The notes under the pieces were generated by a model that saw nothing but the letters and a program-made list of their open reading frames with translations, was not told the origin of the DNA and ran no database searches. A DNA stretch of 26,711 nt from a virus: the IMG/VR virus record IMGVR_UViG_3300006641_000148, positions 1-26,711 of that record; one strand, written 5' to 3'. The translations under genes were made by a program, and so were the position numbers. Below, piece by piece: positions 1,573 through 25,518 of the stretch; within the stretch, counting starts at the first letter, position 1; each line of letters starts with the position of its first letter.

Positions 1573-2943
1573 CTAGGCAGCGACTACCGGAATGGGGAAC
1601 GGCTTTGCCTTATGGCTGCCATCTGCTGGGGTCGGATGCACAAAACCGAACACATCCTTGCGGGCATCCGGGAGGTCTCCCTCGATGTAGACCGGAACTA
1701 GCCCGGTGAGGAACTCAATTCCTGCCGCGAAAATTGGCAGTGCATCTGAATATGCGTTGTTGCACGACACCTCCCACAGTGGCCCCTCCAAGAACATGCA
1801 GGCTCCTTTGCAGATTTGGAGCATTGGACAGTTCGGACATTCAGATCGATGCGACCAATGGGTAGCGGTTCGGAGGGCCACCTGATCGAGTTGGCTGGTG
1901 TGCCCAATGCGGTGAGATTCACCATTCGGAGCCAAAGCAGTGGCGCTGACGTTCTGACACGTAAGCACATTACCCTTGAGGTCCACGGCAATGGAGTCAT
2001 GCCGATCCATGCCGCACTTTTGTCCCAGGCTGGATGCCGGCCTTTTGAACCTCAGCGAATTGACGAAGGACGTCACCCGATCCCGAACGCTTGCAATGCG
2101 GTCGGCCTTTCCATTCCGGATGTCGTGAAAAGCTTGGCGTCTGAATGAATGGAATTCTTCAGGTCGAAGCGATTGGCTGATGCCGCCTGAGTCATAGGCA
2201 TCCACAAAACCGCCCTCCCCGATATGCACATCGGAGTCGCCAGTCAGTTCGACAAAAAAAGACTGGATGGCTGCTCTTGACTGGTTTTCACGATTGAGCA
2301 TCGCGTTGAAGCTGAAACGCTCTTTCGGAGCCAATCGACGGTACAGGTCGAGGATGGCCGCCCTGGAATCTGGCTCTGCCAATGGGTCAGGACCACGCAC
2401 ATGCTGGCCAGGCCCATCGTGCGAGACGCTGACGGTGAAACCCAGGTCATCAAGCCACTGGTTGGTCGACGGACTCAGAAGAGATCCGTTGGTGATCACA
2501 GAGAACCTAGCCTCAGGATATTTCTCTCGTAAGGCCTGTGCTAAAGGTCGGAGCGTCTTGATGTAGACCAGCGGCTCTCCACCCCAGAATTCGATGGCCT
2601 CTGGCGGACTCATGACCCAGTCCTTCAGTGAAGCAAGAAAGCCATCGACATCCTCCGGGTTCGTGTCCACATTGCGGGCCACGAAACGCTGAGAACAGTA
2701 TTCGCAGGCGTAATTGCATGACAAGCCGAGTGAGATTTTGAGAACGCGCGGGGACGTTTTACCCAAGGGAGTGTCCTTGCTCGTCACCGGCGCAGACGCT
2801 GGAGTGCTCCGCAGTGATGCATCGACCGTACGAACCAGCGATTGCCCGTGAAGGTCGGTCAAGCTGGAATCCGAATTGTCGTAGTGCAGTGGCACCACCT
2901 CATCCGTGCGTGGATCGACCGTGGTGATCAGGAATTTAGCCAT
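1573..2943 (-). CDS. Radical SAM/SPASM peptide- or protein-modifying enzyme
   Basis: Predicted 456-residue radical S-adenosylmethionine enzyme. The cluster-binding motif is C76-x3-C80-x2-C83 (SCNYACEYCSQ), followed by the GGEP SAM-contact motif at 121-124 and SVITNGSLL at about 148. The C-terminal part has a full SPASM-type cysteine set: C310, C329, C369, C372, C378, C382 and C394, which in this superfamily holds two auxiliary iron-sulfur clusters. Known SPASM enzymes modify proteins or ribosomal peptides (thioether crosslinks, sulfatase maturation, C-C bonds). The ATG at 2943 overlaps the upstream oxygenase stop as ATGGCTAA and has GGAAAG upstream; a longer frame to 3033 has no support. It is the last gene of a coupled fibre operon, so the Cys-rich fibre tip encoded upstream is the most obvious candidate substrate. 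No recognition (RRE) domain is evident. Family call very secure, substrate inferred. Confidence 0.93.
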   Translation of the reverse strand: MAKFLITTVDPRTDEVVPLHYDNSDSSLTDLHGQSLVRTVDASLRSTPASAPVTSKDTPLGKTSPRVLKISLGLSCNYACEYCSQRFVARNVDTNPEDVDGFLASLKDWVMSPPEAIEFWGGEPLVYIKTLRPLAQALREKYPEARFSVITNGSLLSPSTNQWLDDLGFTVSVSHDGPGQHVRGPDPLAEPDSRAAILDLYRRLAPKERFSFNAMLNRENQSRAAIQSFFVELTGDSDVHIGEGGFVDAYDSGGISQSLRPEEFHSFRRQAFHDIRNGKADRIASVRDRVTSFVNSLRFKRPASSLGQKCGMDRHDSIAVDLKGNVLTCQNVSATALAPNGESHRIGHTSQLDQVALRTATHWSHRSECPNCPMLQICKGACMFLEGPLWEVSCNNAYSDALPIFAAGIEFLTGLVPVYIEGDLPDARKDVFGFVHPTPADGSHKAKPFPIPVVAA

Positions 2944-3553
2944 TGTGTCTTTCCACCTTGATGTTGAGAAGTACCTGCATGAAGGGCGCATCTCCCATGT
3001 AGGTTTTTTGAAAATGAACGGCACGGGCATCAAATGCCACGAGTAATCCCCTGTGAGGCTGTATCCAGTACTTGGCGTGTGTTTCCCACGGCATCAAGCA
3101 TTTGCCAAAGCCCGAGGAGCGCCAGTCTGGATTGCAGATGGCAAAGGCATTCGCCCCGTATCGATTCACCTGCTCTTGCAAGTCTTTTGAAGGTTCCAGT
3201 TCAGGACCATTGGGGAAATACACCGCCTGCAAGTGGCACTCATCCTCATCCGAGTGAGGCATGATTTCCAAACCTGCGGTACGAACAACTTCCCGTCCTT
3301 GCAGGTGGGTGATCCGCCCACACGGCCCCACAAAGTCCCGTTGAAGGACAGGTAGTGCCATCCGGGCCAGTTGAGATGCAGTTGGGACCGATCCGTCAAA
3401 TATGTTGTGCGGATGCCGGCCCCAAATCTCACCCGCATCGGTCTTCATCGCGCCATGGACCTGCAATAGCGCCTGGTACAGCAGAAGGTCAAATGTGGGA
3501 TCAGTGTTGAGGGACCATAGACCCACAGCGGTGGGAAATAGGTTCAACCTCAT
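2936..3553 (-). CDS. Putative 2-oxoglutarate/Fe(II)-dependent oxygenase
   Basis: Predicted 205-residue protein. The N-terminus (LNLFPTAVGLWSLN) resembles the opening of the 2OG-FeII_Oxy_5 / TIGR02466 group, common in phages. A likely iron-binding facial triad is H100-x-D102 (MPHSDEDE) and H180 in GLLVAFDARAVHFQ, followed by a strand ending LLNIKVE in the usual double-stranded beta-helix order. The basic residue that normally grips 2-oxoglutarate after the second histidine is not obvious, so the co-substrate is uncertain. Members hydroxylate proteins, peptides or small molecules. The ATG overlaps the upstream stop as ATGA, and the stop overlaps the radical SAM start by eight bases. This arrangement suggests joint action with the radical SAM enzyme on one target, possibly the fibre protein; that is inference. 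Confidence 0.72.
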   Translation of the reverse strand: MRLNLFPTAVGLWSLNTDPTFDLLLYQALLQVHGAMKTDAGEIWGRHPHNIFDGSVPTASQLARMALPVLQRDFVGPCGRITHLQGREVVRTAGLEIMPHSDEDECHLQAVYFPNGPELEPSKDLQEQVNRYGANAFAICNPDWRSSGFGKCLMPWETHAKYWIQPHRGLLVAFDARAVHFQKTYMGDAPFMQVLLNIKVERHNG

Positions 3554-4407
3554 AGAACGTTCACCATCAGGTCATCGGTTCCAGAGAAATACTTGAATCC
3601 CACCTTGATCTTGGCCGAATCCCCCGCAGCCATGCCATCCGGTCTAAAGCTCGTCGAACCCGCACCGCCTGCAGTTCTGACGCGCCGGGCCACCAGATAA
3701 CCCGCCGTAGACTCCAGGTACACCTCGGCATCACGTTCTTCAATCGGCTCACCGTCTGGCGTTTCGAATTTGAAATTTATGCTGACTTCACCGTTGGACA
3801 CGACATTCAGTGATGGCCCTCCGACAAAGCGGACGACGGGGAGCGTTTCTTCGCGAACCAGCGCCAATGTGATGGCGGGTATGACTTCGATGTTGTGACT
3901 GGCCTTTATCAACTCCGGACTGAAAACATTGAAGCCAAGCGTCCAGTCCTCAAAAGGCGATGACCTGAAGGGCACCAAGATGTGCCCGATCGGATGTGTT
4001 TGAAGAACCGATGCGTGATAGGCCTGCGCATCCATCTTCGACCCTAGGGTCGCAACGTAGAGATTGGGCGTCTGTTGAAAAAACCCCGAAGGTGTCCCGT
4101 ACCTCTCCATGACCCCAACCGGGGCGTAAAGCATGAAACTGGCGTGATCTGAGAACTCAGCGTGCTGGCGCAATGTTTCCAGATCCAGCGTGCGCTGATA
4201 GATCGGATCGCCAAAGACACCGAAACCTCCGCGCCATTCAGCGATCAGGGCTTGATCAAAGAACTTGCCCCCGTTGGTGTGAAGTTTGGAAGGATCGCCT
4301 ACGAACTCCTGCTGCATGACAGATCGGACGCTGAAGGAGAGGACTGATCCGTCGAGCGCCACATCCAAAGCGAATGGGGGATTCTTGTTGCCGATGAAGA
4401 GTTTCAT
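3550..4407 (-). CDS. Cysteine-free protein of unknown function in fibre-modification operon
   Basis: I do not recognise a family for this 285-residue protein. It contains no cysteine at all, in contrast to its three neighbours. The first about 200 residues are mixed alpha/beta with many aromatic residues (for example AEWRGGFGVFGDPIYQ and HILVPFRSSPFEDWTLGFN). The last about 80 residues (GEVSINFKFETPDGEPIEER onward, ending GFKYFSGTDDLMVNVL) look like an Ig-like beta-sandwich. There is no signal peptide or membrane helix. The start has a strong ribosome site (GAGGAGAGG) just after the stop of the Cys-rich fibre gene, and the end overlaps the oxygenase start as ATGA. Possible roles are a fibre-assembly chaperone, a substrate adaptor for the modifying enzymes, or a structural partner of the fibre; none is shown. 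Confidence 0.8.
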   Translation of the reverse strand: MKLFIGNKNPPFALDVALDGSVLSFSVRSVMQQEFVGDPSKLHTNGGKFFDQALIAEWRGGFGVFGDPIYQRTLDLETLRQHAEFSDHASFMLYAPVGVMERYGTPSGFFQQTPNLYVATLGSKMDAQAYHASVLQTHPIGHILVPFRSSPFEDWTLGFNVFSPELIKASHNIEVIPAITLALVREETLPVVRFVGGPSLNVVSNGEVSINFKFETPDGEPIEERDAEVYLESTAGYLVARRVRTAGGAGSTSFRPDGMAAGDSAKIKVGFKYFSGTDDLMVNVL

Positions 4408-4416
4408 GTCCTCTCC

Positions 4417-5379
4417 TCAGCAGCAATTGCAATCGCAATTGCAGTTGTAGCGCGTGGTTTGCGATCCAAAACTGATGGTCGACCCGCCATCAACCAAGCG
4501 GAGCATGTAGTAATACGGGGTCGGCGCCTGGTCGCCGCAGTTGTAGTAATCAGCAGTGTTCGCCACGCAATTAGGTGCGCCTTGCCAGCCCGAAGTCGGG
4601 TTACTACTTCGGAAGCAATTGCTGACAGCATTGAAGAAGTAGTCGTGCAGCCACCCGTAGTTGGCAGTCCACAACGAGCCGCCGTTGTTCATGTACATGT
4701 CCCAGTTCCCGTCGGACTTCAAAAAGCCCATGAGATTGCTGTTCACATGCAGCGAGCGAGTCACATTGTCCGTGTCCTGCATCGTGATCGTCGGGGCGGT
4801 GTTCTGAATCGTCAGGTTCCCAGTCATCGTGTCGCCCGACTTGGCCACTCGGCTGGACAGATCAATGTTGACTGTGGCGTTGCCAGCGGCATCGGGGCCG
4901 GCGCCATTGACGGAGCGCACAAAAGCAGCCGAGTCATACCCGTCCAACTTATCGGCATCGGCTGCCTTGGCCGTGATGCCGAGATACGTCGTGTTGTGGT
5001 TGTGCGTGCTCGATGCGAAGGCGCTGGCGTGCTGGCCGTCCAGCAAGTCGGCATCGAGTCCAGTCCCGGCGCCGTCGACGGTGAGAAGCTTGGCCAGTAC
5101 ATCGGCTGCGGTGTAAGAAGCCGCATTGAGCTTGGCCGCGAACTGGGCATCAATTCCGCTGGACAAGTCCATGATGAAACGCCAGTTGTCGGGGTTGACT
5201 CCGATCAACTGGTAGAGCTTCAACTGATCCGTTCGGTAGCACAGCATCCCCACCTGAAGATTGGTGGTCGGGTAGGTGGTGCCGCTGTGGCAGGAGATCG
5301 CCGTCTTGTCGTTGTTCAGGATCTCAATCAACGAATCCGAGAGCGTTCTGGACGATGGAATGTCGGTGAAGCTTTGCAT
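4417..5379 (-). CDS. Tail fibre protein with Asn-Cys-rich C-terminus
   Basis: Predicted 320-residue fibre. Residues 105-155 carry two LDG repeats typical of trimeric phage tail fibres (LDADLLDGQHASAF and ADKLDGYDSAAFVR), then SGDTMTGNLTIQN at about 181, another widespread fibre motif. From about 210 a distal domain follows (NLMGFLKSDGNWDMYMNNGG, NYGWLHDYFF). Eight of the ten cysteines lie in the last 66 residues: 255, 271, 281, 313, 315, 317, 319 and 320. The first seven of these directly follow Asn (one follows Asp), and the chain ends NCNCDCNCC. The gene starts right after the preceding fibre's stop (TAG-ATG). It is followed by coupled genes for an unknown protein, a putative oxygenase and a radical SAM enzyme. 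The tip may bind metal, form disulfides or be enzymatically modified. Confidence 0.88.
   Translation of the reverse strand: MQSFTDIPSSRTLSDSLIEILNNDKTAISCHSGTTYPTTNLQVGMLCYRTDQLKLYQLIGVNPDNWRFIMDLSSGIDAQFAAKLNAASYTAADVLAKLLTVDGAGTGLDADLLDGQHASAFASSTHNHNTTYLGITAKAADADKLDGYDSAAFVRSVNGAGPDAAGNATVNIDLSSRVAKSGDTMTGNLTIQNTAPTITMQDTDNVTRSLHVNSNLMGFLKSDGNWDMYMNNGGSLWTANYGWLHDYFFNAVSNCFRSSNPTSGWQGAPNCVANTADYYNCGDQAPTPYYYMLRLVDGGSTISFGSQTTRYNCNCDCNCC
4420..4446 (-). repeat. Tandem hexamer coding the (Asn/Asp)-Cys tail
   Basis: Read on the minus strand, the end of the fibre gene is four near-identical hexamers, AACTGC, AATTGC, GATTGC and AATTGC, followed by TGC and the stop. It encodes NCNCDCNCC. Such a short tandem could expand or contract by slippage and so change the number of Cys-Asn units. 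Confidence 0.9.
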
Positions 5380-6732
5380 CTAGTACCCCTGTGCAATCCA
5401 AGTGAAGGAGCCGGTCAATCTCGTGCCGGAACTGTTTTCGAGGACGGCGATAAAGCCGGAAGTGGTGACTGCACCCAGCAGCCGAGGGATGGCGACTGTC
5501 GTGCCACCCTTGTGGGTCGTGGTCACCTCGGGCGGGACACGAAAGTTGCGGGAAAAATAGATTGCGGCACCCGCAGCGGCATCGGTGATCTGGGCAGTGC
5601 CCCGGTCAAAGATGTCAGGCACATCGACTGTCACCCGCAATGCGTCAATGAAGCCGCGATCAGAGTTGCGCGAGTTCAAGATGGCTCGAAACAGCGCGCG
5701 CCTGTAGGTGTAGTCGCCCTGGATGAAATCCCGAAAGTCGGTGTAACCCGGCGGGTGGCCAGCTTCGACGATGGCGGCAAAGTCTTGCTGGGTGATTTCG
5801 GTGCTGGCGACGAGCATGTCGCTGATCACGCCGTTGGCATGCCGGCGGTATTGCTCGGCCAGCGCCAGAGCCTCACGCACTTTCAGGTTCATTGCCCTTC
5901 GCAGGGCGTCCGACATTGCGAAGCCCTCGGTCAGGTTGCGGCGGTAGGCCACCGATCTGCCCAGTACTTCCGCGATGGCCAAGGCTTCAGCCACCCGCTT
6001 GATGGATTGCCGGGCCGCTTTGTCCGCGATGCCAAACGCCTCAGCGACCGGCTTTCGGACCTGCTTTGCGCCCAGATCGCTGACACTCAGACTTTCACTG
6101 ATGCGCAAAATGAAGGCGATCAGATCGGTGTAGGTCTCGGCAAACGCTACGGCTTCTGAGATGCGCTTAGTCATCAGCCGGTCCAAGTCGTCACCCAGTC
6201 CAAATGCTTCGTAGGCGTTCTTGGTCACACCGCGTTGTGGGGTCTCCGAAATCAGCAGGCTTTCTGCCAGGCGCTTGGTATTGCTCTGACGAAGCACGTC
6301 ACCCCAAGCCAGGCTCTCCGAGGAGTTTTTCGTCAGGAGGCGAGTGAGGTAATCGGATGCTAGGAAGGCCTCCCGAACCTCCTTGCGATTGGCTTTTCCG
6401 ACGCCCTCCGCAAAAGCCATTGATTCCACCCATCGAAGCACAAAGGCGATGAGGTCTGAATAGGTCTCTCCAAACCCAACTGCCTCGGACTCGCGCAGGG
6501 TCAACTGCTTGGCCATCCTCTCAGCGAAGCCCATCGCCTCGCTGGACCGCTTGGTCCACTGTCGTCCCGACGCCTCGACCACCGCGAGAGTCACGGCAAC
6601 GGCTACGTTGTAGACAGCGGGATAGGCAGTGGTCCAGTTCTTCCCGGCACTGGCGCTCGACCACGTAAAGCTCGCCGACGCCCATGTGTACCTCGCTCCT
6701 GGGGTTTCGGCGACTGTCACTGTATCGGGCAT
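5380..6732 (-). CDS. Repeat-stalk tail fibre/appendage protein
   Basis: Predicted 450-residue structural protein. Residues 1-60 form an N-terminal region (TWASASFTWSSASAGKNWTT) that may attach to the tail tip. Residues 63-299 consist of 13 copies of a unit beginning E-[AS]-x-x-[FLIVM], spaced 18 residues apart with three 20-residue spacings. Residues 303-385 are a conserved-looking linker domain (YTDFRDFIQGDYTYRRALFR). The last about 65 residues (NFRVPPEVTTTHKGG to SGSRL-like GTRLTGSFTWIAQGY) resemble the beta-rich C-terminal caps of phage tail fibres. It starts five bases after the previous tail gene and ends directly at the ATG of the Cys-rich fibre gene. No enzyme motif is seen. Role as a stalk or host-contact fibre is inferred from architecture and position. 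Confidence 0.75.
   Translation of the reverse strand: MPDTVTVAETPGARYTWASASFTWSSASAGKNWTTAYPAVYNVAVAVTLAVVEASGRQWTKRSSEAMGFAERMAKQLTLRESEAVGFGETYSDLIAFVLRWVESMAFAEGVGKANRKEVREAFLASDYLTRLLTKNSSESLAWGDVLRQSNTKRLAESLLISETPQRGVTKNAYEAFGLGDDLDRLMTKRISEAVAFAETYTDLIAFILRISESLSVSDLGAKQVRKPVAEAFGIADKAARQSIKRVAEALAIAEVLGRSVAYRRNLTEGFAMSDALRRAMNLKVREALALAEQYRRHANGVISDMLVASTEITQQDFAAIVEAGHPPGYTDFRDFIQGDYTYRRALFRAILNSRNSDRGFIDALRVTVDVPDIFDRGTAQITDAAAGAAIYFSRNFRVPPEVTTTHKGGTTVAIPRLLGAVTTSGFIAVLENSSGTRLTGSFTWIAQGY
5836..6546 (-). repeat. Thirteen 18-residue protein repeats in fibre stalk
   Basis: The repeat-initial glutamates fall at residues 65, 83, 103, 121, 139, 157, 175, 193, 213, 231, 249, 269 and 287. 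Spacing is 18 residues with three steps of 20. The loose consensus is E-[AS]-x-x-hydrophobic-small-[ED], then a basic stretch near the end of the unit. Units 2 and 8 are almost identical (EAVGFGETYSDLIAFVLR and EAVAFAETYTDLIAFILR), which suggests a later duplication of a 110-residue block. Confidence 0.9.
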
Positions 6733-7290: not shown

Positions 7291-10200
7291 CTAGTACAGA
7301 CGCAAGGTCGAAAGAATTCCAACGGGAGCAAACCCCGCGCTTGCAGCCTGGATGTCACCGCCCATGCGACCGGCAAAAAGCCGCCGCTCAGAAGCGGTCT
7401 GGCACACCCCGATGCAGACGCGATCGGTGGCCGTCATCCCAAAGGGAACGCTCACGCGCCTGGCCAGGTGGTCCTCCAGAAAGAAGGCGGATGTGGCTGC
7501 GTCGTAGCCCACCAAGAGCAATCCAGAAGGGCCTGACGCGGTCCAGATCACGCAGGTTGTGACCTCGACGGGGATGAACCAAAAGGAGGTGTGAAACACC
7601 GATGGAACGCTTACCGTCCAAGCCACACGGGTGGTGTCCTTGACCATCAGACCATCACCATAGCGGCCGGCCGCATAGGCGATACCTGCCGCTTGGCTGG
7701 ATACTGCGCTGCCCAATCCAGCCGTTGAACCGTTCAGGCGCCAGCCGTAGATCTCTCCTGCTTGCAGCGTGTCCTCGCGGGCAATTTGAAACCTGGCATC
7801 CACATTGGCGACCGCTCCGTCATAGGCCCACTGGCGCCGGGCGGCGTCACCGCTCCACGGAAAATTCGCCTCCAGCCAGGTCGTTCGGTCGTCGACCGAG
7901 GCGCCCAGACTGTTGAGCAAGGTGTTCTGCGCCCGGATTGGCGACACCAGATCAAGCTCGAAGAGGTACTCGGCCGTTTGGGCCCCTGTACTCATGCGTA
8001 GGACGTTGCGGCCATTGACCGCGACCACCGATGCGAAATGCTTGGTCCCCGGAAAACCCAAGGCCTGCTCGTCCCGCTCCAGGATCAGGTTGGCGTTCTG
8101 CGGCTGCGCCACGACGGTCGACACAAAGGTCGGCGTGTCGCTGTATATGCCCGGTGAGGCAATCGCCTTGATCCAGAACCTGCGCTCGCCATCAAAGCCC
8201 GAGGGCAGCGTGTAACTCGTCGACTTGACCTCGGCCACGAAGAGCGACGCATCCCAAGCCGCGCCCTCGCGCAACTCATAACCCACCACCTCAGGCTCGG
8301 GGTTGGGCTGCCAGCGAAACTCCAGCCGATTGGCTGACTGCACGACATCGAACTGGCGCACGGTCGAAGGTGCGAGCAAGGTCAGCACGAAAGTCGTCAC
8401 ATGGGCGCTGTAGTTCCCGGAGGTATCGATCCCGCGTATGTGATACGGGTACTGCCCGGCAGCGCTCTGGTCGTGGACCATCTGGGTCGCCGCGGTCTTG
8501 GCCACCAACTGGGCGTTGTCCCAACCAGGCCCCACCCGCACCTCGTAGCCTGAGAGATCGGCGTCCAGAAGCTCGTCCCACTGAAGGAGCAGGTCCGACA
8601 TCCGGCGCTGGACCAGAAAGCCCGTGACGTCGGACGGCGGAAGCGTTTTCCCCAGCACCGTAGCGTTGAAGGTCGCCGGCACGCTTTCCTTGCGCGTGAT
8701 GCCAATGGCCCGCAGGCTGAACTCGTACTCGCCTTCCTGCGCGTCACGGATTTCGGCGTAGTTGGCACTGGTCAGCGGCAGGCTCACGAAGTTGCCGCCC
8801 CTGACCCGGTACGACAGCCGATACGCGATCGCAGCTTGCACCTCCGACCAGGACACTTGCACCAGAACCTGCGCCTGGTCCTTGACCCGGTAAAGGCTCT
8901 CTTGCACGGCAAGTCCGGTGGGTGTCGCCGGCACGTCCGAGAGGACCGTGATCGATCGTGGCTGGAGCGCCAGACCCTCCTCGATTGCGGCGTACTTGCT
9001 CGGGTTATGAGCCAGCGCCGTGACTTCATGCTCACCCGGATCACGCTCGGCGACAGCGACCACCCGGAAAAGTTGGGTCTCGATGATTGAGGATGCCAAC
9101 ACCCAGATCGCATCCGTCTGCGGGATCAAGCTGAACGGGATCGTCACCGTCAAGGTTCGGCCTGAAATCGGCCCGACCAGTCGCTCTTCAACAGTGCCAT
9201 TGGGCAGAATCACCGAGAGCCGCCACGGCAGATCCGCAGGCAGATCTTGGTCCAGCGTCACGGTGCTGGAGGTTGCCGCGGCAATCCGGCCCCCCAGTCG
9301 CATCCCTCCACGCACCGGGTCCGCCACCTTGATGACATCGCCCGGGCGCACCACGGCCCCTTCCAGACCAGTGCGGAAAGTGACAATTTCTGACTCGGAC
9401 TGCTCGGAGTACAAAAGCCACTTGCCCACGCGGTGAGCCTGGCCTCGGGAGGTGCATCCCAGAGCGACCACCTCGGCTTGCACGATGCCGTACCGAACGA
9501 TACCGGCTGCGTCCTCGACGTACTCGACCTTTTGCCGATAGAAGTCCTGCGGATCGTTCCAGGTCACCAGGGCTACCGTGTGCCGGGCCTTGGCCGACGA
9601 GCCTTGGTAGGCGAACTCACCATCGATCACGTTGCCAGGGGCGAATTGGTAAACCGGGTCCACCGGCGCGTCTTGCGTGACCGTGATGGCCCCACCCGAC
9701 CAATACACCATGCCCCGGAAAATCGAGGCTATGTCCTGAACGACCTTGTAGGCCTGCTCCCGTGTCTGGAGGTACAGGTTGCAGGTAAAGCGCGGCTCGA
9801 GCCTGCCCAGTCCGTCGGGAACGAGTTGATCGCAATACTGAGCCACTCGATACAGGGCCCACTTATCAACCTGTGCCTCCGGGATATAGCTGCCCAGCCC
9901 ATAACGGGTGCTCGTGACCAGGTCATAGAAACACCAGGCCGGGTTATCCGTCCAGGCGATCTTGAAGGTGCCGTCCCAGACCCCGCTGTAGGCCCGAGCG
10001 GCCACGTCGTAGTTCGCCGGCACCCTCACGCGCAGCAGCTTCATGTCGTAGCTGCGGCGTGGGATGGAGGAGAACTGCGAGGCATCGACCCGCAGCGCCA
10101 CCAGGGCGCTGTTGGGATACCTCAGCTTGCTCTCGATGACCTCGGTGTAGGACTCCAGATAGGTCTTGTTCTGGATTGCCGATGAGGTCGAATCGGCCGT

Positions 10201-22961: not shown

Positions 22962-24677
22962 TCAGAGCAGCATCAGCTCGTAATCGGATCCCAGCACCAC
23001 CGAGTCTCCCGGTTTGATCGCCCGTGAGAGGGCCATGATCAGTGCAACGATGCCGTCGATCTTGTTTTCTGCTCGCTCCTTGCGCGGATAGATGTTGTCT
23101 TTGGCGTCCAGGTGGGCGACCACGTTGCTGGCCATCCACGTGAGCACAGGGTCGCCGTCGTGGACCAGCTTTCTTTGCAGCACCAGGGCTTCGAGCGTTT
23201 TCATAGGTTCGCTGAAATTCAGTACCGTGGGCCGCACTTCGATCATGGGTAGCCCCTCGGCCAGCATGCGTGTCGACAACTGGGTGGCCTGAAAGGGATC
23301 GAAGGCCACTGCCTGGACGGCAAAGCGCGAGACCAGGTCCAGCAGGTCGGCCTCGATCCAGCCAAAATCGATCACGTTGCCCGGCGTCACGGTCAGGCGC
23401 CCCGTCCGCATCCAGCCGGGGTACTGGCTATTGCCCGCTGCCTGGACCGTGTCCTCGGGCAGGTAATACTTTCCAAACACCACGTAGGCGTCTGAGATCT
23501 CGGGGTGCTGAAACATCAGCATCAGCGCCGCGATGTCGGTCTTGCTGGCCAGGTCCAGGCCCACCCAACACGGCTGCCCCGTAAAAGCCTCGATATCCAG
23601 GGACGAGTCGCCGCAGGCATCCCAGGCCCGCATGTCCATCCAGGCCGTATCAGCGTTGACCCATTCGTTGAGGTGCTTCGTCTTGAAGTTATTGACCGCA
23701 CTGGGCAGTTGCATAGCCTTGGCCTGCAAAGGTCCCAAGATCTCGGGCCGGACCGATATGCCCCAGTTGGGGTTGGCTTTGACCAGGGCGTTCTCCGTGG
23801 TCCAGTCGTCCCCGTCATCAAGCCCGTACACGATCCCGAACTGGGTATCGTCTTCAAACACACCGTTGAGCAGCTTCGTCACGAAGGTTCGAGCCTCATA
23901 GCAAATGCCAGCCCGGTTACTTCCGGCTGTAGTGATCACCCACAGCAACGAGTTGTCCCGCTTGCCGGTTCCGGTCTCGACCACGTCGTAGACGGTGCGC
24001 GTTTTGTGCGCGTGAAGTTCATCGACACAACCAAAGTGGATGTTCAGGCCATCCAGCGTCGAGCCTTCAGCCGACAAGGCTTCAAACTTTGAACCCGACG
24101 CCAACACATGCATGTTGTGCGCTCCAACGTTCACAGCGAAGCGGCTTCGAAATCCGGCGCTGCGCCTAGCCATCGTCTGGGCGTCACCGAAGACGATGCG
24201 CGCCTGATCTCGGGTCGTAGCCAAGGAGTACACCTCGGCACCTCCCTCGCCGTCGGCTGCCAGCATGTACAGCGCCACGGCCGAGGACAGCGTTGATTTG
24301 GCGTTGCCGCGCGGCACCTCGATGTACGAGCGCCGATATCGCCGCTTGCCGTCGCTCTTCACCCAGCCAAAAACCGTCGACAGAATGAATATCTGCCACG
24401 GCTCCAAAGTGATCGACTCGCCAGCCAGAGGCCCCTTCACGTGCGGCAGCCGCTCAATGAAGGCGCAGAGGTTGTCGGCCGGGCAGAAGCTGCGCCCATC
24501 GCGGTCCACCAGCTTTGGGTTAAAGCGGTACGGACTGCCTTTGCCCTTGAAACGGGCTAAATCGTTGAGCTGCCTCTGGCATGCCAACTGCACCCAGCGG
24601 CAGCTCAGGATTTCACCAGCCACCACCTGCTCGGCGTACTGCCTGGCGATCTTGGCCGTTTGGTTCTTGGCACTCAT
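22962..24677 (-). CDS. Terminase large subunit
   Basis: Predicted 571-residue DNA packaging motor. The ATPase half has a Walker A-type motif VPRGNAKST at 121-129 and a Walker B pair CVDE at 217-220 (FGCVDELHAHK). The RNase H-like nuclease half starts with VGLDLASKTDIAAL, containing the first metal ligand D375, and later has AVAFDPFQATQLS and a C-terminal KIDGIVALIMALSRA segment. The N-terminus (ARQYAEQVVAGEILSC) is typical of HK97-type large subunits. The ATG at 24677 has no recognisable Shine-Dalgarno sequence, which may reflect the inserted toxin-antitoxin segment that separates it from the small subunit gene. Confidence 0.95.
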   Translation of the reverse strand: MSAKNQTAKIARQYAEQVVAGEILSCRWVQLACQRQLNDLARFKGKGSPYRFNPKLVDRDGRSFCPADNLCAFIERLPHVKGPLAGESITLEPWQIFILSTVFGWVKSDGKRRYRRSYIEVPRGNAKSTLSSAVALYMLAADGEGGAEVYSLATTRDQARIVFGDAQTMARRSAGFRSRFAVNVGAHNMHVLASGSKFEALSAEGSTLDGLNIHFGCVDELHAHKTRTVYDVVETGTGKRDNSLLWVITTAGSNRAGICYEARTFVTKLLNGVFEDDTQFGIVYGLDDGDDWTTENALVKANPNWGISVRPEILGPLQAKAMQLPSAVNNFKTKHLNEWVNADTAWMDMRAWDACGDSSLDIEAFTGQPCWVGLDLASKTDIAALMLMFQHPEISDAYVVFGKYYLPEDTVQAAGNSQYPGWMRTGRLTVTPGNVIDFGWIEADLLDLVSRFAVQAVAFDPFQATQLSTRMLAEGLPMIEVRPTVLNFSEPMKTLEALVLQRKLVHDGDPVLTWMASNVVAHLDAKDNIYPRKERAENKIDGIVALIMALSRAIKPGDSVVLGSDYELMLL

Positions 24678-24700
24678 GCAAGGGTGATTTCAATCATGTA

Positions 24701-24729
24701 TTGACATCAGCTACACATCCAGCTAGGAT
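24701..24729 (+). promoter_or_regulatory. Sigma-70-type promoter of toxin-antitoxin operon
   Basis: TTGACA at 24701-24706 is separated by exactly 17 bases from TAGGAT at 24724-24729. Transcription would begin near 24736, about 28 bases before the antitoxin start. It lies in the 86-base divergent gap between the terminase large subunit and antitoxin genes. Confidence 0.8.
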
Positions 24730-24731
24730 TC

Positions 24732-24748
24732 GTGTATCTGTTGTGTAT
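24732..24748 (+). promoter_or_regulatory. Putative antitoxin operator (GTGTAT direct repeats)
   Basis: GTGTAT occurs at 24732-24737 and again at 24743-24748, 11 bases apart, about one helical turn. TACACA at 24712-24717 is an inverted partner of TGTGTA at 24742-24747. The repeats overlap the expected transcription start, a suitable location for autorepression by a ribbon-helix-helix antitoxin. Binding is inferred. Confidence 0.5.
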
Positions 24749-24763
24749 TCGTTTGGAGATGCC

Positions 24764-25033
24764 ATGCGTGACGCCGCCATCAATTTGCGAGCCCTGCCTC
24801 AACAGCGCGACCTGATCGACCAGGCCGCGCACCTGCTTGGGAAAAACCGGTCTGACTTCATGCTGGAAGCCGCCTGCGACAAGGCTCAGTCGGTGCTGCT
24901 TGACCAGGTGTTCTTCAGCCTGGATGACGCCAAGTTCCGGGAGTTCACGGCCATGCTGGATGCGCCGGTACAACCCAACCCAGGGCTGGAACGCTTGCTG
25001 GCGGTCAAGGCCCCCTGGAAAGTTGGCGCATGA
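24764..25033 (+). CDS. DUF1778 ribbon-helix-helix antitoxin (TacA/AtaR-like)
   Basis: Predicted 89-residue antitoxin. Residues MRDAAINLRALPQQRDLIDQ form the N-terminal strand-helix of a ribbon-helix-helix DNA-binding domain, followed by AAHLLGKNRSDFMLEAA, and the C-terminal toxin-neutralising tail ends in NPGLERLLAVKAPW, as in the DUF1778 family. It should dimerise, bind its own promoter and inhibit the GNAT toxin. TGGAG lies five bases before the ATG; upstream in-frame sequence covers the promoter and is not coding. The stop overlaps the toxin start as ATGA. This pair is on the opposite strand to all other genes and splits the terminase genes. Confidence 0.92.
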   Translation: MRDAAINLRALPQQRDLIDQAAHLLGKNRSDFMLEAACDKAQSVLLDQVFFSLDDAKFREFTAMLDAPVQPNPGLERLLAVKAPWKVGA

Positions 25034-25518
25034 ACTTGCGTGCCCCGGAGTCGTTGTCACCGGATCACCAAGTCAGCTCATTCGCCTGCGGCGAATCCAC
25101 GCTCGACGAGTGGCTCAAACGTCGCGCTCTGGGCAACCAGGCCAGTGGTGCCAGCCGCACGTTCGTCGTCACAACCCCAGAGCGTGAGGTCATGGGCTAC
25201 TACGCTTTGGCTGCAGGTGCCGTCGCGCACCAAGATGCTGCCCGGTCCATTCGTCAAAACATGCCCGATCCAGTTCCAGTGATGGTCCTGGCCCGGTTGG
25301 CTATCGATGCCCGAGCGCAAGGAATGAAACTGGGGGCAGCCTTGCTTCAGGATGCGCTACAGCGCTGTGTTCTGGTATCGCAAAACACAGGTGTGCGAGC
25401 CATGCTTGTGCATGCACTCAACGATCGTGCCCGCCAGTTTTACGAGTACTACGGTTTTAAGGCATCGCCCGTACATCCCATGACACTGATGCTGCGGATC
25501 AATCAGTCATCAATCTGA
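25030..25518 (+). CDS. GNAT-family acetyltransferase toxin (TacT/AtaT-like)
   Basis: Predicted 162-residue toxin. Known relatives block translation by acetylating the amino group of aminoacyl-tRNA with acetyl-CoA. Visible features are HQVSSFACGESTLDEWLKRR at the N-terminus, SRTFVVTTPEREVMGYYAL, the acetyl-CoA binding region VMVLARLAIDARAQGMKLG at about 85-102 and the conserved tyrosine motif QFYEYYGF at about 137-143. QGMKLG departs slightly from the usual QGxGLG. It is coupled to the antitoxin by a four-base overlap. Its stop is only three bases from the convergent terminase small subunit stop, so no terminator fits between them. Confidence 0.93.
   Translation: MNLRAPESLSPDHQVSSFACGESTLDEWLKRRALGNQASGASRTFVVTTPEREVMGYYALAAGAVAHQDAARSIRQNMPDPVPVMVLARLAIDARAQGMKLGAALLQDALQRCVLVSQNTGVRAMLVHALNDRARQFYEYYGFKASPVHPMTLMLRINQSSI

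Follow-up and report, generated by a model that had tools for sequence, protein, structure and literature searches.

Radical S-adenosylmethionine (SAM) enzymes of the SPASM type provide the closest described parallels to a gene module found in IMG/VR virus record IMGVR_UViG_3300006641_000148. The stretch analysed covers positions 1 to 26,711 of that record (26,711 bases, here called the window). Its minus strand carries a tail and packaging module in which four adjoining genes encode a tail fibre with a Cys/Asn-rich tip, a companion protein and two enzymes, namely an oxygenase of the 2-oxoglutarate (2OG)/Fe(II) type and a radical SAM protein of the SPASM group. The ranthipeptide maturase PapB (NF047865), the nearest NCBIfam profile to the last of these, is likewise a SPASM enzyme that adjoins a Cys-rich substrate with Asn or Asp beside Cys. 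Its substrate, however, is a leader-bearing peptide with repeated Cys-X3-Asp/Glu motifs, whereas that of the window enzyme would be a phage structural protein with the tip NCNCDCNCC, and the match of 56.4 bits does not reach the 340-bit cut-off. QhpD, also of the SPASM type, has a protein subunit and not a small peptide as the target of its thioether chemistry. Its profile (TIGR03906, quinohemoprotein amine dehydrogenase maturation) shares with the module the use of a SPASM enzyme on a protein and gives 43.5 bits here, but the 453-bit cut-off is far off, and QhpD is a cellular enzyme with another substrate and no phage setting.

A pairing of a 2OG oxygenase with a SPASM radical SAM enzyme is also named in NCBIfam, as FlmC / FlmE-OhkG (NF052475, NF052473). 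Oxygenases in three loci (L012, L047 and L108) match FlmC weakly (46 bits against a 240-bit cut-off), but the window oxygenase has no FlmC match; no paper on this system was found in the literature. Anaerobic sulfatase-maturating enzymes (structures 4k36-4k39) have the same radical SAM plus SPASM architecture and align with most of the length of the window enzyme. They differ in substrate motif, and their profile TIGR03942 scores 34 bits here against a 349-bit cut-off. On the fibre side, the nearest parallel is with auto-processed fibres. Hint and Peptidase_S74 domains cut themselves off, and relatives of the window fibre carry these domains directly after the Asn-Cys (NC) tip; the window fibre has neither and stops at its tip.

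The four genes of the module are likely to form a phage-encoded system of tail-tip maturation, in which the tip would be cross-linked, with hydroxylation as an accessory step. The features of the module are as follows.

4417..5379, minus strand: tail fibre or tail-tip protein of 320 aa, the proposed substrate (open reading frame, ORF; PHROG tail fibre matches, phrog_7389, E 2.5e-10)
4420..4617, minus strand: Cys/Asn-rich C-terminal region of the fibre with isolated NC dipeptides (residues 255-320)
4420..4446, minus strand: alternating fibre tip NCNCDCNCC, the proposed modification site (residues 312-320; blind motif scan and linkage)
3550..4407, minus strand: Cys-free companion protein of 285 aa (iterated profile matches; structural model)
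2936..3553, minus strand: 2OG/Fe(II)-type oxygenase of 205 aa, a proposed accessory hydroxylase (AlphaFold model, H100/H180)
1573..2943, minus strand: SPASM radical SAM enzyme of 456 aa, the proposed tip modifier (PF04055, TIGR04085, phrog_1802 E 5e-62)
2695..2718, minus strand: CxxxCxxC radical SAM cluster motif (C76, C80, C83; invariant in the alignment of relatives)
1762..2016, minus strand: SPASM auxiliary-cluster region with seven Cys (C310, C329, C369, C372, C378, C382, C394; TIGR04085; invariant)

A sequence-only reading of the window had described these four genes as coupled by overlaps or gaps of -8 to +9 bases and placed between tail and lysis genes. The junctions measure +9, -4 and -8 bases in the order fibre, companion, oxygenase, radical SAM. 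All four genes are present at exactly the coordinates given there, except for the start of the radical SAM ORF, which runs to 486 aa from a TTG; the likely start is the ATG at 2943, further downstream, giving 456 aa. Upstream lie tail genes, including one for a 1169-aa J/Tal-like protein, and downstream are DUF6127, a gene of no known family and then a phage lysozyme. The characters assigned to the proteins, namely a Cys/Asn-rich fibre tip, a companion that on counting has no Cys at all, and two enzymes read as a putative 2OG/Fe(II) oxygenase and a radical SAM protein with a SPASM domain, are likewise borne out by the data below.

Viral contigs were scanned blind with a DNA pattern for NCNC[N/D]CNC, which holds no information about the enzyme. 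Totals from this and the other scans are lower bounds (at least the number given) and refer to the matches listed. The collections share close relatives, so the counts are not independent events; dereplicated and lineage tests agree in direction. The ORFs that carry the motif are tail-like, differ widely in length and sequence, and have it at their very C-terminus. Among the matches listed, 53 C-terminal NC tails are followed by 4 kb of sequence or more; for 52 of these a radical SAM gene lies within 4.5 kb on the same strand, and for the 53rd it lies at 5.3 kb; after dereplication the figure is 22 of 22. All 61 strong radical SAM matches sit on the same strand as an NC tail and downstream of it. 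Some tip-linked radical SAM matches are weak (E 1e-8 to 1e-20) and may represent a second radical SAM lineage.

The association also holds when the enzyme is taken as the starting point. Sixty-two radical SAM loci include 4 kb or more of upstream sequence, and 57 of them contain a same-strand ORF with an N/D-rich run of XC units (one of the 57, L291, is doubtful); of the remaining five, L299 and L315 hold a long ORF with 11 NC dipeptides just downstream. Relatives of the window fibre itself precede the radical SAM gene in most loci that include upstream sequence. Where loci share the J/Tal protein and extend at least 7 kb downstream (n = 28), 27 have both tip and enzyme, none has the tip only or the enzyme only, and one (L203) has neither. 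No radical SAM gene accompanies the ORFs that carry the motif away from the C-terminus without a self-cleaving domain after it (L062, L097, L119, L134 and L137). From this two-way linkage we infer that the radical SAM enzyme very probably acts on the fibre tip. Enzyme homologues found mostly without the fibre would have told against the sequence-only reading, and the outcome was the opposite. Of its proposal that both enzymes act on the tip, the part concerning the radical SAM enzyme is strongly supported by the linkage; thioether or hydroxy-Asn chemistry, and an effect on strength or host recognition, are still conjecture.

A few loci are unusual. L004, L022 and L025 were excluded from the evidence as rearranged or chimeric-looking assemblies; their radical SAM genes are 98-100% identical to that of the window with rearranged neighbours, and they are likely chimeric assemblies or deletions. 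In L193 (G004:C1:37440-38789) the radical SAM gene carries two frameshifts and the phage fibre tip reads NCNCDRNCGC, with Arg at an expected Cys, so that in this one case tip and enzyme have possibly decayed together. L077, L098 and L135 contain CQxC-repeat-rich ORFs with NC tails, and their radical SAMs are more distant; these loci are perhaps a second lineage of the system.

The window fibre ends in YNCNCDCNCC, and its ORF stops there. Eight of its ten Cys (residues 255, 271, 281, 313, 315, 317, 319 and 320) fall within the last 66 residues, five of them within the last eight, and the protein contains six NC dipeptides (shuffle p = 5e-5). Over 56 dereplicated tails, the density of Cys drops from 0.29 within the final 20 residues to about 0.01 by 80-120 residues and is near nil further upstream. 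The residue between the Cys of their XC runs is Asn in 226 cases, Asp in 26, Ala in 19 and Gln in four. Since N/D in the core is favoured by the search pattern, a cleaner figure comes from Cys upstream of the last 14 residues; 154 of these 238 (65%) are preceded by Asn, against an Asn background of 8.2%. The recurring unit in these tails seems to be Asn-Cys. Tip codons in the phage tails are mixed (TGC 193, TGT 111, AAC 141, AAT 93), which indicates that selection acts on the protein and rules out the tip as chance or a DNA repeat in phages. In Burkholderiales genomes the pattern mostly picks up AACTGC hexamer runs, and those matches were therefore left out of the evidence.

The window enzyme scores above cut-off for both the radical SAM family (PF04055, 33.4 bits, cut-off 29.5) and the SPASM domain (TIGR04085, 33.6 bits, cut-off 27). 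The three Cys of the CxxxCxxC motif are invariant in 30 relatives. The SPASM pattern (CX13GX4C and CX2CX5CX3C, then C) is complete, and all seven of its Cys are invariant in the same relatives. Among NCBIfam profiles the nearest are PapB and the geopeptide maturase, both far below cut-off, and PapB is also the top profile, again below cut-off, for the homologues in L051 and L064. As PapB makes Cys-Asp/Glu thioethers, with the bond at a non-alpha carbon, thioether cross-linking between Cys and Asn/Asp is the leading guess for the chemistry at the tip, though a tentative one. PapB accepts Cys-Xn-Asp with n = 0-6 (PMC9413430). Those spacings make a linkage between adjacent Asn/Asp and Cys chemically thinkable, with Asn as an acceptor lying outside that paper's demonstration.

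Several observations weigh against a cross-linked tip made by this enzyme. An NC-rich ORF is missing from the neighbourhood of the radical SAM gene in three of the 62 loci, and none turned up in the sequence read around three diverged cellular homologues (L344-L346). The PapB score (56.4 against 340 bits) is so far below the cut-off that its chemistry is not safely transferable, and the known PapB acceptors are Asp/Glu, while the tips here have mostly Asn. A fold search with the companion found no enzyme or chaperone fold. Most of the enzyme can also be aligned with anaerobic sulfatase maturases, structures 4k36-4k39 covering residues 74-383, and the radical SAM homologue of Achromobacter phage JWF is annotated as an anaerobic sulfatase-maturating enzyme. 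The radical SAM enzyme could, like these, turn tip Cys into formylglycine, and the resulting array of aldehydes could bond amines on the host surface. We regard this as improbable, since the PapB and geopeptide maturase profiles outscore that of the sulfatase maturase (56 against 34 bits), the tip lacks the C/S-x-P/A-x-R sulfatase motif, and formylglycine formation leaves the preference for Asn before Cys without explanation.

The position of the tip in the mature protein bears on its use. In the window and in most relatives the ORF ends at the tip. In others a Hint domain or a Hint-like start follows it (Achromobacter phages JWF and 2-1, L155, L162 and L347); PF05203 (Hint) was confirmed after the tip in L163, which is JWF, and in L155 (E 3e-12 and 2e-11). 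L057 and its near-copies have a Peptidase_S74 auto-chaperone (PF13884, above cut-off), which begins within a few residues after the tip. Both domains are self-cleaving, so the mature protein would still end at the tip, and independent add-on domains that keep it terminal suggest that the tip must be exposed. A third, uncharacterised domain of about 165-215 aa (KIVCGKLHDLGMM...) follows the NC run in L036, L043, L295, L299, L309, L315 and L317, and may be another self-removing domain.

These domains also bear on the idea that the NC tail is a precursor akin to those of ribosomally synthesized and post-translationally modified peptides (RiPPs), cut off as a free antimicrobial, signal or superinfection factor and absent from the virion. 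SPASM enzymes usually mature peptides, and some NC-tailed ORFs are short (65-133 aa). In most loci, however, the tail is the end of a fibre-like protein 200-630 aa long, the self-cleaving domains would leave the tip on the fibre, and no exporter or protease family was seen among the intervening proteins. In the window the candidate substrate is not a short leader-bearing precursor but a 320-aa fibre with the motif at its end. A released peptide is very unlikely.

The other two proteins of the module are less constant than the tip and the radical SAM enzyme. The window oxygenase has no Pfam (E of 1 or less), PHROG or NCBIfam match of its own. Its AlphaFold model (pLDDT 88.6) is a double-stranded beta-helix that matches 2OG oxygenases in the PDB (3bvc, the prolyl hydroxylase P4H 4j25, and PHD2) with probability 1.00. 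The metal-binding triad is H100-S-D102 and H180 (HxD...H); both His are invariant in 44 relatives, and position 102 varies among them, often being His. Across modules at least two types of 2OG oxygenase occur (PF13759 and PF13640), single, paired or absent, and this variation in type and number makes them look like exchangeable accessories. The chances that the oxygenase hydroxylates the tip region are about even.

The companion has no Pfam, NCBIfam or PHROG match either. An iterated profile finds its family in 84 ORFs of the fetched loci (65 after dereplication), and the family is phage-only in the libraries searched; tblastn against the annotated phage collection gave no direct relatives of the window oxygenase or companion. 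It is present in most modules, including those of L051, L054 and L058, in which the radical SAM gene directly follows the tip. The most conserved part of the protein is its C-terminal half, which resembles an Ig-like domain; its model has a pLDDT of 91, and fold matches are limited to Ig-like domains and uncharacterised phage proteins. One possible role of the companion is to cover the tip in the way of the adhesins on some fibres; another is to present it to the enzyme. We give a role of either kind an even chance. Across the wider module, tip and radical SAM occur almost without exception, the companion often, and the oxygenase as an accessory that can be exchanged. The exact set of four genes proposed from the sequence was too narrow, and a fixed set is rejected, as both the oxygenase and the number of genes vary.

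Some modules are more elaborate. A second radical SAM gene is found in L064, L065 and L090, and in L347 (G118:C5:22500-42000) two Hint-type fibres with NC tails share one region with five radical SAM matches. L081, L104 and L112 have two or three short NC-tailed ORFs in a row, followed by a single oxygenase gene and a single radical SAM gene. An NC-tailed phage ORF in L095 (8601-10555) is followed by a pyridoxal phosphate enzyme of Cys/Met metabolism (PF01053, E 6e-42) and then by an enzyme-like gene of no known family. The NC-tail module of L138 contains two membrane fatty-acid desaturase-like proteins (8359-9879) without a Pfam match. NF049918 is matched by two members of the module protein set.

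That 2OG oxygenases vary so freely would also fit enzymes directed at something other than the fibre, such as a host metabolite or another virion protein, with host-recognition regions simply collecting cassettes. Radical SAM cassettes without an assigned target have been reported from the host-recognition islands of pelagimyophages (PMC7029224). Such a target is no more probable than the free peptide, given the two-way presence and absence of the enzyme with one motif across unrelated fibres. The least likely alternative is that metal ions or iron-sulphur clusters sit along the axis of a trimeric CxCxC tip, the radical SAM enzyme acting elsewhere or in cluster assembly: the long fibre tip of T4 has HxH iron sites along the trimer axis, and alternate Cys at a C-terminal end would face one side of a strand, but this leaves unexplained both the SAM-cleaving SPASM enzyme beside nearly every tip and the isolated NC pairs upstream.

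For enzymatic modification of the fibre tip, the following course can be proposed. The newly made fibre would have an exposed tip at its C-terminus, in which Asn/Asp and Cys alternate, and scattered Asn-Cys pairs just upstream of it. The SPASM enzyme would use a 5'-deoxyadenosyl radical and its auxiliary iron-sulphur clusters to modify the Asn-Cys units before virus assembly. The most likely product would have the Cys sulphur joined to a side-chain carbon of Asn/Asp, as in ranthionine-type thioethers. The oxygenase would probably hydroxylate the same tip region, and the companion would probably present or cap the tip. This would leave the virion with a rigid, cross-linked end that contacts the receptor; to see rigidity or receptor binding as the purpose of the modification is a reasoned guess. 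At slightly less than an even chance, the module belongs to a widespread, unnamed class in which radical SAM enzymes cross-link Asn-Cys tips and oxygenases or other enzymes diversify the receptor-contacting end, giving phage fibres RiPP-like tips of non-standard chemistry.

No description of the tip and radical SAM pairing was found in the open-access literature and family libraries searched, although preprints or subscription papers could hold one. Provisionally, the pairing is new as a system; the enzyme superfamilies are known, and the window enzyme falls outside the named families tested. If the reading is correct, virions bear radical-made amino-acid chemistry on their host-contacting tips. 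The structure and function of tail fibres would then be read differently from sequence, as a recombinant fibre made without the enzyme would lack a working tip, and a large family of unusual protein-modifying enzymes would be opened to study. The prediction is directly testable, since Achromobacter phage JWF, isolated and in culture, has the system in its Hint-bearing version; mass spectrometry is not reported in the JWF paper.

Two further features of the window lie outside the module. The 450-aa protein at 5380-6732 (minus strand) has many similar helical stretches (SEAL/FAE-type), and its C-terminal part resembles, as judged by eye, the 157-aa gp27 of JWF. Positions 24581-25518, which lie between the terminase genes but on the other (plus) strand, encode a toxin-antitoxin-like pair made up of a TacA-like antitoxin (PF08681, E 9e-26) and a GNAT acetyltransferase.

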